Virus record (IMG/VR): IMGVR_UViG_3300030012_001393
Coordinates: 1-30,207 of that record
Reading direction: 5' to 3' (one strand)
Length of the DNA stretch: 30,207 bases
Source of the DNA: a virus
Both the position numbers and the translations under genes were made by a program. This document shows, piece by piece, positions 13,613 to 25,227 of the stretch (the first letter of the stretch is position 1; each line of letters begins with the position of its first letter). The notes under the pieces are model-generated. The model did not search any database. It worked only from the letters and a program-made list of their open reading frames with translations, and had not been told where the DNA came from.

Positions 13613-13943
13613 GATCTGGTAAAACTATACCCATTTCAGTTGCGGCCCAACGAATTATAAGGTCAATATACTCTGTAAATTCTTCTTGTGTCAATTCTTT
13701 TGTATTAGCAATATTAAAATGTTCTTTTAAAGTTTGGTGCATTTCATATTCTGAATAACCTAATTCTTTAGATAAATGTCTACATAATATCCTATAATAT
13801 GAATTTTGTTGCGTAGAACGCTTTTTTTCGGTAGGATTTATAACTAACTCTACATCACCATCATAATTATATAAATGTCTTTTAAACCCATCGATATCAT
13901 ATAATGTCAATTTACCATTTTTAACACTACCAATAAATTTCAT
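13593..13943 (-). CDS. NinB-like recombination protein
   Basis: 116 residues. The segment KKRSTQQNSYYRILCRHLSK matches the RS-x-QQN-x-Y pattern of the NinB/Orf family of phage recombination mediators, which help load recombinases on SSB-coated DNA. It is followed by YEMHQTLKEHFNI and an ending IIRWAATEMGIVLPDP, also familiar in relatives. It is the last gene of the minus-strand replication operon, with an ATGA overlap to the methyltransferase upstream. Its 3' end runs 20 bases into the convergent tail gene, and no terminator is visible there. Confidence 0.65.
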   Translation of the reverse strand: MKFIGSVKNGKLTLYDIDGFKRHLYNYDGDVELVINPTEKKRSTQQNSYYRILCRHLSKELGYSEYEMHQTLKEHFNIANTKELTQEEFTEYIDLIIRWAATEMGIVLPDPKKSHQ

Positions 13944-15055
13944 AATCTAAATAGTTTCTTAAATATAACTTCTGCAACATTAACAGTTATTGCATTGCCA
14001 CATTGTTTATATCTTTGCGTGTCTGACTGTCCATCAGTCCAATGATCAGGAAAACCTTGTAATCTTTCACATTCTATAGGTGTTAATCTTCTTATGTGGC
14101 TAAAACTTTTATCTAATATAACTTTTGGCTTGTTGCCACTACCTTCACTTGATTTAAGGCTTCTTGATACACTATCTTCACTATATACGTTTTGTTCAAA
14201 GTGCCAACCATAATCTGTTTTATCTTTTAATGGGTTTTTAATGACTAATGGTGGCATAGTAGATAAATCTGTCTCTGAAGTTCTTCTTGCTGGTAAACAA
14301 GGAGATATAGGTTCTTTTCTTATTCTTAAACCCTCATCATTTCTAAAATCTGCAACTTTTACCCATTTAGGGTCTTTATAATCTCTAGCACATAAAGTAG
14401 GCGACTCATCTCTCCAACTGAACTCTCTAGGAGAAGAATTTGTTATTTGGAATTTTTTTTGGCCTTTTCCATTTTGTCTAATCGTTCTGTCATCTTTTGT
14501 GATAGGAAATACTTTTGGTCTACTTCCTCCTCTAGTATATCTGCCAACGAAATAGATTCGCTCTCTGTTTTGTGGTACACCGAAGAACTTACTATTAAGC
14601 AGTTCGCACTCAACGGAATAACCAATGTCGGTGAGAATTTTATAGATTGCAGGAAAGACTGATCTATTTCCCGCACTATATAAGCCTTTAACATTTTCGA
14701 GAACAATATATTGTATCGGTCTTCCTTCTTGTATATAGAATTTGAGAATCCGTACGATTTCATAAAAGAGAGTACCTCTTGTGTCCTCAAAGGCGAGGCG
14801 ACTGCCTGCGATAGAAAATGGTTGGCATGGGAATCCTCCAGTAAGCAATTCAATGTCTTTTGGGAGTTCTTCAAGTTTAATTCTGGAAACATCTCCAAGT
14901 TGTTCTGCATTCTTAAACCTCCTTTGAAATAATGCGTTTGCGTATTTATCTATATCACTAAAACCTATCCAATTAGGTTCTATTCCTACTTTTTTAAGAG
15001 CAAGAGAAAAACCACCTATGCCACTAAATAAGTCTAAATGTCCATTAATAGTCAT
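13940..15055 (-). CDS. DNA (cytosine-5) methyltransferase
   Basis: 371 residues with all main C5-methyltransferase motifs in order: I, DLFSGIGGF (8-16); IV, GGFPCQPFS (73-81) with catalytic Cys77; VI, ENVKGL (120-125); VIII, QNRERIYFVG (162-171); IX, RRLTPIECERLQGFP near 320; and X, GNAITVNV near 355. The variable region between VIII and IX (about 175-315) should set target choice, which cannot be read from sequence. It probably methylates phage DNA to resist host restriction, or marks it; no cognate restriction gene is evident, although an HNH protein lies upstream in the same operon. Overlaps the gene before it by 11 bases. Confidence 0.95.
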   Translation of the reverse strand: MTINGHLDLFSGIGGFSLALKKVGIEPNWIGFSDIDKYANALFQRRFKNAEQLGDVSRIKLEELPKDIELLTGGFPCQPFSIAGSRLAFEDTRGTLFYEIVRILKFYIQEGRPIQYIVLENVKGLYSAGNRSVFPAIYKILTDIGYSVECELLNSKFFGVPQNRERIYFVGRYTRGGSRPKVFPITKDDRTIRQNGKGQKKFQITNSSPREFSWRDESPTLCARDYKDPKWVKVADFRNDEGLRIRKEPISPCLPARRTSETDLSTMPPLVIKNPLKDKTDYGWHFEQNVYSEDSVSRSLKSSEGSGNKPKVILDKSFSHIRRLTPIECERLQGFPDHWTDGQSDTQRYKQCGNAITVNVAEVIFKKLFRL

Positions 15056-20710: not shown

Positions 20711-21121
20711 TCAAATTTTTTCATAAGTCAAAAGGTTTTTAGTATTCAAATACACATTGTCATAATTATAATTATAAGGCATATCTTTAAGTATATAAAT
20801 CCAACATTTTAAATTTTGTCCATTTTTGCGTGGTTTATTGTTTACCATAAAAAAATTGTCTTCTACTCTATTATAAAAAGTGCCTTCACCTTCCAAAATA
20901 TCTAATCTCTGTAAAATTTTTGGCGTTACCTGGTATATTTCTCCTGAGATCTGGTATCCATCATCTGAATTATATAAAACGGCAGGAAAGCCGCCTAAAT
21001 TTATCATGTTAAATTTTTCAACAGACTGAGCCGTGCCAATATAATTGCCGCCGTCGATAATATCATGGTTATGAAAACCTTTTTTTAGTGTGCCGTATAC
21101 AAAAACTTTATCTATGTCCAT
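20711..21121 (-). CDS. Gamma-glutamylcyclotransferase-like (AIG2/GGCT family) protein
   Basis: 136 residues with the family signature KVFVYGTLKKGFHNH (residues 5-19), a conserved GGFPAVLY strand (43-50) and LDILEGEGTFYNR (73-85), in which Glu77 is the likely catalytic acid. Family members open gamma-glutamyl bonds, releasing 5-oxoproline, or act on related gamma-glutamylamines. No membrane or signal segment. It lies alone, downstream of the long repeat region and the cassette terminator, but points the same way as the amidoligase operon. In other phages and bacteria, cyclotransferase, amidoligase and amidotransferase genes are reported to occur together, so it may trim the product of the amidoligase (inference). 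Confidence 0.8.
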   Translation of the reverse strand: MDIDKVFVYGTLKKGFHNHDIIDGGNYIGTAQSVEKFNMINLGGFPAVLYNSDDGYQISGEIYQVTPKILQRLDILEGEGTFYNRVEDNFFMVNNKPRKNGQNLKCWIYILKDMPYNYNYDNVYLNTKNLLTYEKI

Positions 21122-21141
21122 ATTATAATTTACGCTAAGTA

Positions 21142-21446
21142 GATCAGAAAAACACGATTAACTTTGATTTAAAGTAATACTTTAAGTCTACTTTAATGGC
21201 TAAATACGGATCAGAAAATATAATGATCTGGTACGCTTCTCGTCGTGAACCTAATTCCAGGAGACATCCGATCAGGAAAAATTGATTCCAGATCAAAAAT
21301 ATAACGACCAGGTGACATAGGTGAGTGGCAGATATAAAAAAAATTAGGGTGAGCCTAAAATATAATAGGGGGGGTTTGTAAATTCGCTCTCTCGACAGAA
21401 AAATCAAAAAAAAACTTCAAAAAATTTAGATCAGGATTATGATCAG
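21142..21446. repeat. Degenerate GATCAG-containing repeats
   Basis: GATCAG starts at 21142, 21209, 21270, 21429 and 21441, with a related GATCA at 21291. The copies at 21209 and 21291 continue as AAAATATAATGATCTGG and AAAATATAACGACCAGG, so the unit is about 22 bases with partial dyad symmetry. Candidate binding sites of a phage regulator or initiator. Confidence 0.4.
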
Positions 21447-21490
21447 GATTGAATATTGGTATTAGTCATTTTTGACAATTTTAAAAAATA

Positions 21491-21561
21491 TTATTTTGGA
21501 GATTTTGACACATTATTTTAGAGATTTTGACACATTTTTAAATTTATGACACATTGTGTCA
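21491..21561. repeat. 22-bp tandem repeat plus TGACAC palindrome
   Basis: The unit TTATTTTGGAGATTTTGACA continues CA and begins at 21491; it is repeated with one mismatch from 21513. A third, shortened TTTATGACACA leads into TGACAC-ATT-GTGTCA (21547-21561). Such iteron-plus-palindrome blocks are typical of origins or multi-site operators. Confidence 0.5.
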
Positions 21562-21660
21562 AATGTTAAAATGGCGCAGCTTGGGCAATGATAGCATTTG
21601 CGCAACATCATATATTTGTGTATATGACCCAATTTTAGGGCCTTTTTTTTGGGGTTTTTA

Positions 21661-21780
21661 ATGATTTATGGCATTTTTAATATATTTGCCAATATCATGC
21701 CAATTATGGGTTTAATGATTTATGTGTTTATGTGTGATATTTTAAAGATATTATTTAATGCGCTTAAATTGCTTTTTTAA
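21661..21780 (+). CDS. Possible 39-residue hydrophobic protein on the plus strand
   Basis: Reads MIYGIFNIFANIMPIMGLMI and ends ILFNALKLLF, one or two membrane helices. GGGG lies 6 bases before the ATG, similar to the G-run ribosome sites of the neighbouring cassette. No promoter or family is recognised, and AT-rich DNA easily yields hydrophobic frames, so this stays doubtful. Confidence 0.25.
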   Translation: MIYGIFNIFANIMPIMGLMIYVFMCDILKILFNALKLLF

Positions 21781-21816
21781 GGCCTTTTATTTATTGGTTG
21801 GATGTCTAATTGTGGG

Positions 21817-21846
21817 CAAAAAAAAACCCCCAAATTAATGGGGGTC
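21817..21846 (-). terminator. Intrinsic terminator of the amidoligase operon
   Basis: On the minus strand ACCCCC (21831-21826 complement side) pairs with GGGGGT around an 8-base loop (21832-21839), followed by a run of nine T (plus-strand A run 21818-21826). It lies 21 bases after the stop of the small membrane protein. This is the clearest terminator of the window. Confidence 0.85.
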
Positions 21847-21866
21847 TTTTAATGTTTATGATTTTA

Positions 21867-22052
21867 TTAAATATTCATAAACAAACCAATTAAGACAAAC
21901 ACACATACAACAATTGTCCAAATTGAAATCATTGATATTATTTCAATATTAAGCCCCCTTTCATTTTTGATTTGTGGCGCAAAGTGTGCCATATCACATA
22001 CATATGATTTTTGCCCCTTTTTAAGTTTTTGAATATATACTATTTTTTTCAT
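21867..22052 (-). CDS. Small membrane protein of the amidoligase operon
   Basis: 61 residues starting MKKIVYIQKLKKGQKSYVCD. The ATG overlaps the stop of the amidotransferase gene (TAATG) with GGGGG 6 bases upstream; an in-frame ATG 18 bases earlier lies inside that gene. The N-terminal half is basic and soluble, and residues about 38-60 form one membrane helix (ISMISIWTIVVCVFVLIGLF). It is therefore probably anchored in the inner membrane with the basic part inside. It is translated with the two enzymes and ends just before the terminator, so it may tether them at the membrane or export their product; this is inference. No family recognised. Confidence 0.6.
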   Translation of the reverse strand: MKKIVYIQKLKKGQKSYVCDMAHFAPQIKNERGLNIEIISMISIWTIVVCVFVLIGLFMNI

Positions 22053-22777
22053 TAAATGCCCCCATTCCATTGTTTATTGCATACACCACACAAATTCATG
22101 TCCTCATTGACATGACGTTTTGATGTGTATGTGTTACACCAATCACAAAATCCATTTTTATATATTGTTAATTGGTTTACTTTTTTATTTGTTGGTATTT
22201 CACACATTGAACTAAACCCACCAAAATCAAATGTATTTTTTTTGTATGATGAATTTGAAAACCATGTATTGTTGACCCAATGACCCATGTGTTGATTGAC
22301 AATTTTGAAATTGCAATCAGATGCCAAAAAAATTAATTTTGATTGCCCAATAAAATCAGACATCAATTTGATTATTGATTTATTATGTATAAATCGATTT
22401 GGCAAATGTTTCAAAACATCATCATTAAAAACGCGTGTGTCACTACGTTTTTTACAATTATCAACATTGTTGATTATACCATTATGACAAAAAACCAAAT
22501 TGTCATTTACCTTGAAAGGGTGGACATTATATTTTGATTTTTGGCCATGTGTGCCAATTCTATAGTGTAACAATATTGGACTTGTTTTTGCAAAATTATT
22601 ATACACTTTATCGTACATGTTGACATGATCCATTTTGTTCATGGTTTTATGTACTTTGATTGTGCCATTTTCAACGTATGCAATACCACACCCATCATCA
22701 TTATTGTCAAATGATGTTTTTAATGTTTTTTCACTTAGTTTTGGCGCGTTTATTTTAGAAATAGATGCTAAACACAT
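22052..22777 (-). CDS. Class II glutamine amidotransferase-like protein with C-terminal zinc finger
   Basis: 241 residues from an ATG that places Cys at position 2, as needed for an Ntn-type nucleophile after Met removal. It has GGGGGT about 10 bases upstream; a start 18 bases earlier would bury the Cys. Family features follow in order: NDDGCGIAYV (26-35), LLHYRIGTHG (69-78) with Arg73, NVHPF (84-88), FCHNGII (96-102) with the oxyanion Asn99-Gly100, and SDTRVFNDDVL. These enzymes hydrolyse glutamine and pass on ammonia, or cut related amides. The last 30 residues hold FCDWCNT and NLCGVCNK, a zinc finger not usual for the family. It starts 4 bases after the amidoligase stop, so both are translated as a pair. 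Confidence 0.8.
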   Translation of the reverse strand: MCLASISKINAPKLSEKTLKTSFDNNDDGCGIAYVENGTIKVHKTMNKMDHVNMYDKVYNNFAKTSPILLHYRIGTHGQKSKYNVHPFKVNDNLVFCHNGIINNVDNCKKRSDTRVFNDDVLKHLPNRFIHNKSIIKLMSDFIGQSKLIFLASDCNFKIVNQHMGHWVNNTWFSNSSYKKNTFDFGGFSSMCEIPTNKKVNQLTIYKNGFCDWCNTYTSKRHVNEDMNLCGVCNKQWNGGI

Positions 22778-22781
22778 ATGA

Positions 22782-24398
22782 TTATTTACCCCCATTTATT
22801 ATTTGATTTAATGATTTGTTGAATTGATTTAAAAACCTATTCAAATTCATATATGATTTGAAATTTGATTTTACAAACCCAACAAAGTTTTTAATATTAA
22901 TATTTGAATATGAATTGACTTCACAAAATTCCTTCATTGCCATTAAATACTCAATATTCTTTTTCAATCTATCTGATTTTAAATTGCCCTTAAATATACG
23001 ACATTCTATTGTTGCACTATTTTGAAAATTTAGGGCCTTATATCTATTGCCAAAATTAGCCTTGATAAATTTTTCATAATTGTCACTATATACGTGCTTA
23101 TTTACAATTGTTGATTTCATAAACCTTTTAATATCGCCCTTGTCAATTTCGGCCCAATCATTAGAATTACGTTGCGCAATCAATTCAGTAAATTCAACAT
23201 TTTCATACATTAAGCGCATAAATTTGGACATCGTATAGTCTGACATGAAATTCCTTGACATATGGATGTGAATGCCACATCTATTATCAGAATAAGATGA
23301 AAGCATTGAACGGAATTTGGCAAACATTTCATCCCAATCAATTTTCATAAAACATTTGTATGTCATTGGATGACTTACAAACTCGACACCACGTTGGCCC
23401 AATGATGAATCATATTTGGCATAAAATAGCGCTTTACCATTTAATTCTGTTGCGCGTATGACCCTATCAACAACTTTTGCAATTTCGTGCCGATATTCAC
23501 GTTTTATGTTGGTTTCAATTTCATATCCAAAATATTTATTTTTATTAAAATGAGGACTCAAAAAACCCATTGGATTTCCGTTTGCCAATCTAAAAAAACG
23601 TGGATGGGGTTTATATGAATAGTCATTGATTTTATATTTTAAATTTGTCTTGTTGCAATGTGTACATGTGCAATCATCATCCAAATATTTATCCATTGTA
23701 AAATTGCCACAATCTCCACATGCAACCAAATTAAAAGCGCGTAGAATATATGATGAAATCGGCAATAAATTTTCTGTACAAGGTACGCCACAATATGTTG
23801 GATATTCTTTTCTTTGACCATCATGTAACATAGACCCATGTTCATTAAAATTTATATATGAAAAGTCACGTTTTAATGTCATAAAAGCATTTAATGAAAT
23901 TGCACTAATCTCATGAGGTTTTAAAAGATTTTTATCTAAACCAACCCATGTTGTACTTTCATTAAAATCAGACCCCAAAACATACGCGCGTGTGAAATTG
24001 TGATATTTGCCAACACCCATTGTCATGGGCAAATTTGTGGTGTTATTTATCATATTTTCAACATTTACAAGTGAATTATTTAACATTGTGTAAATGTCAA
24101 AATCTTTTAAATATTTTCTAAATTCAAGTCTTTGCACATTGTTAAAACCATACAAACCAACTATTGGCAAATATGTTAAAAACAACCTTTTATTGTAGTC
24201 ATTTTGGATTAATTTTTTTATACTTTCAAAACGTCTAATTGTATTAGAAAAATTGAAATCTGTATCACTTCTGTAAGAACTTGTTGAACTTGTTGCAAAT
24301 TCTTTAATGCCCTCATATGTTATTGAAATTTCAAGATTGAAATTTGTTCTAGTAAACCCAACATCATATTTATGTAAATTTTCTGTTGTGATATCCAT
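22782..24398 (-). CDS. Amidoligase-family (COOH-NH2 ligase) enzyme with internal zinc ribbon
   Basis: 538 residues from the ATG preceded by AAAGGA; an in-frame ATG 33 bases earlier lacks a ribosome site. The C-terminal half shows the amidoligase pattern, related to glutamine synthetase/GCS folds: FGYEIET (290-296), AKYDSSLGQRGVEFVSHP (327-344), CGIHIHMSRNFM (374-385) and NSATIECRIFKGNLK (460-474). The acidic and His residues there are expected to bind ATP, metal and substrate. Before it lies a zinc ribbon (CGDC 227-230; CTCTHC 243-248). The N-terminal 200 residues match nothing I know. The enzyme should join a carboxylate and an amine using ATP, but the substrates are unknown. Downstream is an amidotransferase in the same operon. 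Confidence 0.8.
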   Translation of the reverse strand: MDITTENLHKYDVGFTRTNFNLEISITYEGIKEFATSSTSSYRSDTDFNFSNTIRRFESIKKLIQNDYNKRLFLTYLPIVGLYGFNNVQRLEFRKYLKDFDIYTMLNNSLVNVENMINNTTNLPMTMGVGKYHNFTRAYVLGSDFNESTTWVGLDKNLLKPHEISAISLNAFMTLKRDFSYINFNEHGSMLHDGQRKEYPTYCGVPCTENLLPISSYILRAFNLVACGDCGNFTMDKYLDDDCTCTHCNKTNLKYKINDYSYKPHPRFFRLANGNPMGFLSPHFNKNKYFGYEIETNIKREYRHEIAKVVDRVIRATELNGKALFYAKYDSSLGQRGVEFVSHPMTYKCFMKIDWDEMFAKFRSMLSSYSDNRCGIHIHMSRNFMSDYTMSKFMRLMYENVEFTELIAQRNSNDWAEIDKGDIKRFMKSTIVNKHVYSDNYEKFIKANFGNRYKALNFQNSATIECRIFKGNLKSDRLKKNIEYLMAMKEFCEVNSYSNINIKNFVGFVKSNFKSYMNLNRFLNQFNKSLNQIINGGK

Positions 24399-24520: not shown

Positions 24521-24711
24521 AATCGATCCAATGACAAAGTCAAGCATTATTTTTGTCCTCGTCGATGACTCTATATTTCGTAATATTATTGATTTTTTGA
24601 TGTGGTGTTCAAGCAATTATTTATTTGCTTAAATGGCCTATTTATGGCGCTCAAATGGCTTTTTAAATATTCCAAGTATTATTTTAATTATTTTGTAACA
24701 AAATTAATTTT

Positions 24712-24844
24712 ACTTGACTTTATGATGCAAATTATTGTATGCAAATTCCTGATCCTATTTTTTAATATTTTACTTGACTTTGTGTTTAGTTTTGTTGTAT
24801 CGATCAAAAAAAACTTGACTTTTTGTTGCAAAGTATTGTATGCA
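24712..24844. repeat. Direct repeats ACTTGACTT with GCAAA-TATTGTATGCA
   Basis: ACTTGACTT occurs at 24712, 24772 and 24813. The first and third copies continue with matching 23-base segments (24721-24743 and 24822-24844, 20 of 23 identical, both ending TATTGTATGCA). Iteron or repeated operator/promoter candidate. Confidence 0.5.
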
Positions 24845-25227
24845 CATTGCAAAGCAATGCCAAATCCAAATATGCTAAATCATACATACAATGATAAAAC
24901 AAATCAATCAAAATTAAATATCAAATCAATGCACGTTTTGCACATCACAAAAATCACAATTAATTGGCACTTAATGTAAAACTTTAAGTCTTATTTAATG
25001 CCACTTAAACAACTACTTTAAATGGGTTTTAACACCCCACCCACACGCAACTAAATCTATGAAATGTCACGTCGAGGATGAAACGTTTTGTCGACGAGGG
25101 GGTAAGGGGGATACGTATAGTACCTTCGTGGCAGATCGCATTACCCACAAAATACAAAAAAGAACTATGAAAAAACGCATTTCCAAAAAAACTATGAAAA
25201 TATCTATGAAACTCATTATATTAAGAT

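Follow-up and report, generated by a model that had tools for sequence, protein, structure and literature searches.

An amidoligase and a class II glutamine amidotransferase encoded as a phage gene pair, with zinc ribbons and an optional cyclotransferase

Gene organization and protein families

The window analysed here is a 30,207-nucleotide stretch of viral DNA (IMG/VR record IMGVR_UViG_3300030012_001393, positions 1 to 30,207). One part of it encodes an amidoligase (AML), a glutamine amidotransferase (GAT), a small membrane protein and a cyclotransferase-like protein (GGCT), all on the same strand (Table 1). The four open reading frames are located where the initial annotation had called them, and its family assignments agree with Pfam profile matches to PF12224, PF13230 and PF06094.

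Table 1. Features of the AML-GAT locus (window coordinates)
Feature	Position	Strand	Remarks
GGCT, gamma-glutamylamine cyclotransferase-like (GGACT/AIG2)	20711-21121	-	PF06094 match
58-nt duplicated element, copy 2	21143-21198		~20 nt upstream of GGCT start codon
Intrinsic terminator of the AML-GAT-membrane protein unit	~21818-21850	-	hairpin and T run
Membrane protein, single-pass, 61 aa	21867-22052	-	one hydrophobic segment
GAT, class II glutamine amidotransferase (Ntn), 241 aa	22052-22777	-	PF13230 match; Cys2 nucleophile
AML, Amidoligase_2 (GS/GCS-like carboxylate-amine ligase), 538 aa	22782-24398	-	PF12224 match
58-nt duplicated element, copy 1	24944-25000		~545 nt upstream of AML

AML starts at the ATG at 24398, just after AAAGGAAAC, and matches PF12224 with 28.8 bits (curated cut-off 22). 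The same profile matches 33 of 35 AML family members. The catalytic core spans approximately residues 285–510, in which Glu293, Glu295, Asp330, Glu339, His377, Asn457, Glu465 and Arg467 are kept in 43/43 non-redundant relatives. The corresponding ligase-core motifs (GxExE, D, E, HxH, N and TxExR) are present in 42–43 of the 43, with Thr463 in 40/42. Fold and profile matches are to the carboxylate-amine ligases YbdK, GS, PafA and GCS. Nine of the ten best Foldseek matches are YbdK, GS, PafA, Dop or GCS, and the remaining one is 1tt4, a predicted glutathione synthase (TM 0.2–0.33 for a model with pLDDT 66). Against PDB sequences the AML profile gave weak matches alone, for the most part to zinc-finger proteins.

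The N-terminus of GAT reads MC. Class II glutamine amidotransferases require a cysteine directly behind the initiator methionine, and the ATG at 22795 is therefore an unlikely start. GAT matches PF13230 with 28.4 bits (cut-off 23) and contains the N-terminal cysteine (Cys2, 39/39 relatives), as the initial annotation had noted, together with the glutamine-binding Arg73 and Asp113 (40/41 each) and the oxyanion residues Asn99-Gly100 (41/41 each). That annotation had made its reading depend on profile matches and on retention of key residues in close relatives; the cut-offs were passed, and the expected catalytic residues of both proteins are near-invariant among 41–43 non-redundant relatives.

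Structure prediction was also proposed there. The AlphaFold model of GAT (pLDDT 88) has an Ntn fold, matching 1xff with an E-value of 3.5e-7, a probability of 1.00 and a TM-score of 0.51. The top Foldseek groups were the GlmS glutaminase domain (glutamate bound), followed by EgtC. In profile comparison the GlmS model scored far above the EgtC model for the window GAT; the EgtC model matches 6/37 GAT family members.

The start codon of the membrane protein shares one base with the GAT stop codon (TAATG), such that its translation is coupled to that of GAT. This 61-residue protein has no family assignment. Small transmembrane ORFs are found right behind GAT in the nearest relatives, L095 and L098, and small membrane ORFs follow GAT in 12/41 clusters, compared to 25/251 control genes (Fisher p 0.0017). 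The terminator, described in the annotation as clean, is indeed strong (-20.3 kcal/mol, z = -4.97, with 9–10 T behind the hairpin). Since the membrane-protein stop and the GGCT start are some 745 nt apart, an interval that lacks any convincing gene and on which the annotation was silent, GGCT lies outside the AML-GAT transcription unit. The two copies of the 58-nt element align with a local score of 55, compared to a maximum of 33 in 300 Markov-shuffle trials. They are the only strong copies in the window, and the element was not found in relatives.

Pairing of AML and GAT, and the optional GGCT

Scans of IMG/VR using the single window AML or GAT protein as query gave no matches. With GAT as the only query, 70 viral loci were recruited; AML is directly upstream in 68 of them, and the other two are cut by a contig edge. 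Conversely, GAT is directly downstream in 71 of 80 viral loci recruited by AML alone, with a contig edge cutting seven more. The pair is also found in 11/12 bacterial-genome loci, and the twelfth stops inside GAT. PF12224 by itself misses one relative (G002); absence elsewhere was rechecked with profile A6, which recovers it. The distance from AML stop to GAT start is commonly -26 to +5 nt, as expected for subunits of one enzyme. AML and GAT look fused in L173, a metagenome-assembled genome, where an indel is the probable cause: the sister L171 encodes them as separate ORFs, and a fusion would bury the N-terminal cysteine. In the AML tree, the window protein clusters with L095 and L098 (99/92, 97/95). 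The pair recurs in many unrelated phages, and on comparative grounds AML and GAT are a real functional unit of fixed order and obligate pairing.

GGCT matches PF06094 with 82.4 bits (cut-off 22.8), and its best PDB sequence matches are the AIG2-like domain structures 2kl2, 1vkb and 3jub. The YGTLKKG motif begins at residue 9, and the catalytic Glu77 aligns with a glutamate retained in AML-linked copies. GGCT accompanies AML-GAT in 12/71 loci; on all 12 contigs shared with the pair it is downstream on the same strand, in five of them 44–46 nt after GAT. It occurs in 143 of 50,697 phage records, chiefly Pseudomonas phages of the amidoligase-cassette type. In L014, a close phage without AML-GAT, GGCT is kept and its catalytic glutamate and YGTL motif are gone, with a lysine at position 77 in place of the glutamate. 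An apparent decoupling of GGCT in the relative L022 was rejected because its GGCT sits just outside the locus examined; a solitary GGCT is found only in L014. Relatives differ in what they carry between TerS and the early genes, with AML in 1/16 and GGCT in 2/20.

The initial annotation's single four-gene cassette is not supported as such: GGCT is optional and, in the window, transcribed separately, and the membrane ORF recurs in a minority of clusters. The functional linkage that it proposed is supported for AML-GAT and more weakly for GGCT.

Zinc ribbons and comparison with known systems

A zinc ribbon (Cys227, Cys230, Cys245 and Cys248) is located immediately N-terminal to the AML catalytic core, and its cysteines are invariant or at least 90% conserved in 35 relatives. 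Among 60 AMLs compared, the ribbon is found in 48 and is missing in phiEco32-type proteins and in the solitary AMLs L007 and L010. The L142 protein, labelled as lacking a ribbon in the tree, contains one at 253/270, and the label is a domain-boundary artefact. In this branch the region is frequently enlarged to 4–12 CxxC knuckles. GAT has a C-terminal CxxC...CxxC of its own (Cys211, Cys214, Cys230 and Cys233). The ribbons of both proteins are missing from the initial annotation, and the zinc-finger arrays marking this AML branch seem undescribed so far.

The association of amidoligase, class II amidotransferase and AIG2/GGCT families by comparative genomics, correctly mentioned in the annotation, is already published for phiEco32, LUZ24-like phages, PSA-HP1 and ZRK32 (PMC5498523, PMC3890496, PMC10945688, PMC10580990). 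The gene set is thus of a known kind, of which the window locus is a distinct branch. Cassettes of the phiEco32/LUZ24/PSA-HP1 type consist of a COOH-NH2 ligase, Amidoligase_2, a long GATase, an ATP-grasp protein and GGCT (PMC5498523, PMC3890496). As in the window, Amidoligase_2 precedes the class II GATase, with GGCT nearby, in the early region of tailed phages. In contrast, their GATases have ~378–846 residues, compared to 241 in the window, and their AMLs lack the ribbon and form their own clade (100/96). In the window's 33,690-base contig, which is possibly incomplete, neither COOH-NH2_lig (PF14395; found in the UFV-P2 control) nor a RimK-type ATP-grasp (sought through its family and also with the UFV-P2 protein, each of which was detected in controls) was found.

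A close likeness in organization is to the Marvin-cluster mycobacteriophages (gp105/gp106) and the OM43 phages MEP401/402 (MEP402 gp06/gp07), which have the same pair, order and ribbon before the AML core, at 23–27% (AML) and 26–37% (GAT) identity to the window. These pairs were reported as auxiliary metabolic genes, with the ribbon not mentioned (PMC10580990); no GGCT adjoins the pair in MEP402 or Gattaca. Phage-ZRK32, by its published description, has the same three families and an extra glutathione-synthase gene, and its authors propose a role in nitrogen metabolism (PMC10945688). PADLOC models gave no match for the four window proteins or two relative pairs, and the label of a known anti-phage defence system was dropped.

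Possible functions of the AML-GAT pair

The families, catalytic residues, obligate pairing, ribbons and gene order are established from sequence. We infer that AML and GAT form a complex, and tentatively prefer, at somewhat less than an even chance, a two-component amide synthetase that depends on glutamine and that its ribbons would bring to a host macromolecule. GAT would hydrolyse glutamine at its N-terminal cysteine and pass ammonia to AML, which would activate a carboxylate with ATP and form the amide. The ribbon before the AML core and that at the GAT C-terminus would dock the pair on a host protein, nucleoprotein or envelope-associated polymer. Through the small membrane protein the pair may be brought to the membrane, and GGCT, if present, may clear or reverse the resulting gamma-glutamyl amides. 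The fixed-order pairing, near-invariant glutamine-binding and oxyanion residues, GlmS-like GAT fold, AML ligase matches and ribbon distribution argue for such a synthetase. Against it, the AML model is poor (TM to YbdK 0.23–0.32). In addition, the GAT fold and some family members match EgtC, a class II GATase homologue whose role is to cleave off gamma-glutamyl groups, such that hydrolysis without ammonia transfer is possible. No gene for a putative target is encoded near the pair.

A possible but somewhat unlikely alternative is gamma-glutamyl editing, in which AML would join the glutamate gamma-carboxyl to an amine (like GCS or EgtA), GAT would strip the gamma-glutamyl group (like EgtC) and GGCT would cyclise gamma-glutamylamines, all three acting on one bond type, either to shield an intermediate or to keep a reversible mark in balance. 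Ergothioneine synthesis offers a precedent for such a ligase and hydrolase in one pathway: EgtA is homologous to gamma-glutamylcysteine ligase, and the glutamyl residue is taken off by EgtC, a homologue of class II GATases (PMC9103826). The EgtC group among the GAT matches, the AIG2-like (GGACT) resemblance of GGCT and its motifs, intact beside AML-GAT and lost in L014, are consistent with editing. However, EgtB acts between EgtA and EgtC, whereas the AML and GAT genes adjoin without a third enzyme, and an opposed ligase and hydrolase would be odd as an obligate, often overlapping pair with no intervening step. Most AML-GAT loci also lack GGCT, and GlmS is by far the better model for the window GAT.

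Superinfection exclusion by modification of the cell surface or peptidoglycan, suggested for phages that encode these families (PMC5498523, PMC10580990), agrees with the excess of membrane ORFs behind GAT. We regard it as quite unlikely: AML and GAT both look cytosolic, zinc ribbons are better suited to a protein or nucleic-acid target, no wall gene recurring next to the pair was found, and the literature on these cassettes yielded no experimental test. A last reading, in which AML-GAT and GGCT would be accessory genes that have nothing to do with one another and lie close by chance, is very improbable: the variable locus, the solitary GGCT and the intervening terminator would fit, but the pairing counts already exclude it for AML and GAT, and the rarity of GGCT, its constant placement relative to the pair and the loss of its catalytic glutamate where the pair is absent speak against it for GGCT.

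Phage amidoligase/GATase pairs have been noted for years, with no tested function found in the literature. A minimal unit of two genes, instead of a long cassette, is more testable, and the near-universal AML ribbon points to where the target should be sought. In a bolder reading, which we consider unlikely as a whole, the pair would be a widespread phage-encoded device that runs on glutamine and amidates host macromolecules or adds gamma-glutamyl groups to them. An evolvable array of zinc knuckles would guide it, and by changing this array different phages would direct one two-subunit enzyme to other host proteins or nucleoproteins. If the pair does amidate or gamma-glutamylate a host macromolecule, it would represent a new route of host modification by phages.

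Gene set and repeats of the window

The enzymes, membrane protein and terminator of the initial annotation were all found on the minus strand at the coordinates it had assigned, and its family assignments were borne out by profile searches, in which the 538-, 241- and 136-residue proteins exceeded the curated Pfam cut-offs for Amidoligase_2 (AML), GATase_4 (GAT) and GGACT (GGCT), respectively. The 61-residue protein contains a single hydrophobic segment and received no Pfam family assignment. Its start codon overlaps the GAT stop (TAATG), and the terminator that follows has a folding energy of -20.3 kcal/mol (z -4.97). Since GGCT starts ~745 nt past the membrane protein stop, it must be a transcription unit of its own, apart from AML, GAT and the membrane protein.

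The two copies of a 58-nt element align with a score of 55, while none of 300 shuffles scored above 33; no copy was found in relatives. The 34-nt repeat, with boxes ACTTGACTTT and TATTGTAT, forms an operator- or iteron-like array of three copies (76-100% alike, spacing 60 and 41). The DNA methyltransferase of the window has no counterpart in loci fetched around 80 related terminases.

Coordinates of features in the window
Feature	Position	Strand	Remarks
AML	22782-24398	-	538 residues
GAT	22052-22777	-	241 residues
Membrane protein	21867-22052	-	61 residues
Terminator	21818-21850	-	
GGCT	20711-21121	-	136 residues
58-nt element, copy 1	24944-25000		~545 nt before AML
58-nt element, copy 2	21143-21198		~20 nt before GGCT
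34-nt repeat array	24707-24841		between AML and divergent terminase small subunit
DNA methyltransferase	13940-15055		phrog_116, E 4e-85

Gene neighborhoods of AML and GAT

A GAT-only scan of IMG/VR recovered 70 loci, with AML directly upstream on the same strand in 68; the remaining two start at GAT itself. In the reverse direction, an AML-only scan gave 80 loci, with GAT directly downstream in 71, seven ending at a contig edge and two without GAT (L193, with room for just 374 nt, and L225). Bacterial-genome loci show AML then GAT in 11 of 12, the other (L178) stopping within GAT. The AML-GAT gap is often -26 to +5 nt. The AML-GAT pair is the unit. A single 681-residue ORF holds both in a MAG (L173, 5173-7218), probably through an indel because its sister L171 has two ORFs. 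A Brachyspira contig (L169, 5490-10806) carries three Amidoligase_2-like genes, one GAT and one GGCT consecutively.

The proposed four-gene set is supported for this near-constant pairing, but less so for its other members. Counting the window with the 70 GAT-recruited loci, 12 of 71 have GGCT; when loci are clustered at 70% GAT identity, these fall into 6 of 41 clusters. GGCT is invariably downstream on the same strand, 44 to 4,080 nt past GAT. A small membrane ORF follows GAT in 12 of the 41 clusters, versus 25 of 251 control genes (p 0.0017), and in all three members of the window clade; the proteins are mutually dissimilar, and their recurrence lends modest support to a membrane association. 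Neighborhoods with GATase-like or AIG2 genes are reportedly mentioned in the Pfam text on PF12224.

Among terminase-related phages, AML, GAT and GGCT occur together in the window and in G002, and GGCT occurs without AML-GAT in G001 (L014). In the G001 GGCT the motif reads YGNS and the catalytic Glu is replaced by Lys; AML-linked GGCTs keep YGTL, and the Glu in those aligned. This motif loss in one lone GGCT points to a functional link of GGCT with AML-GAT. The best structure match of GGCT is AIG2-like (GGACT), a family acting on gamma-glutamylamines. In G001, whose TerL is 90% identical to that of the window, the variable locus that holds AML-GAT in the window contains an ORF (L014, 8487-8966) reading by eye as a peptide deformylase.

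Phage cassettes of amidoligase, GATase, ATP-grasp and GGCT are already published for PSA-HP1 and relatives, where they are described as peptidoglycan-modification cassettes (PMC5498523), UFV-P2 (PMC3890496) and ZRK32 (PMC10945688). These include COOH-NH2 and ATP-grasp ligases, whereas the window contig contains neither. The AML-GAT pair was reported in OM43 phages, in a paper that cites the phiEco32 and Marvin proposals (PMC10580990).

Conserved residues, zinc ribbons and proposed chemistry

The key residues are near-invariant in relatives. AML E293, E295, D330, E339, H377, N457, E465 and R467 are present in all 43 non-redundant AMLs and H379 in 42; among 41 GATs, C2 is conserved in 39/39, N99 and G100 in 41/41, and R73 and D113 each in 40/41. 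The predicted GAT model (pLDDT 88) is nearest to the GlmS glutaminase domain with bound glutamate, followed by EgtC. Confidence in the AML model is low (pLDDT 66 overall, higher in the core); nine of its best ten structural matches are YbdK, glutamine synthetase, PafA, Dop or gamma-glutamylcysteine synthetase and the other a predicted glutathione synthase, all with low TM. Among AML relatives, three hit the NCBIfam model of YbdK.

Directly N-terminal of the catalytic core, AML carries a zinc ribbon. Across 35 aligned AMLs, its C230 and C245 never vary, and C227 and C248 are kept in at least 90%. Arrays of 4-12 CxxC motifs are present in many AMLs, with no convincing Pfam match among ten scanned, and C-terminal CxxC pairs in many GATs, including that of the window. 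In a 60-row tree, the window AML clusters with L095 (99/92) and L098 (97/95), whereas AMLs of the published phiEco32-type cassette, which lack the ribbon, form their own clade (100/96) apart from ribbon AMLs. Two solitary AMLs with no GAT neighbor (L007, L010) likewise lack it. None of the papers in the collection searched combined 'amidoligase' with 'zinc ribbon'; a description in Iyer et al. 2009 is possible.

Gamma-glutamyl editing by AML, GAT and GGCT is a serious rival because of the analogy that may be drawn with EgtA/EgtC (PMC9103826) and the GGCT link. We favor instead a two-subunit, glutamine-dependent amide synthetase, which AML and GAT would form together, because their pairing is fixed, their overlap frequent and the glutamine site near-invariant. 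The ribbon suggests that the target is a macromolecule.
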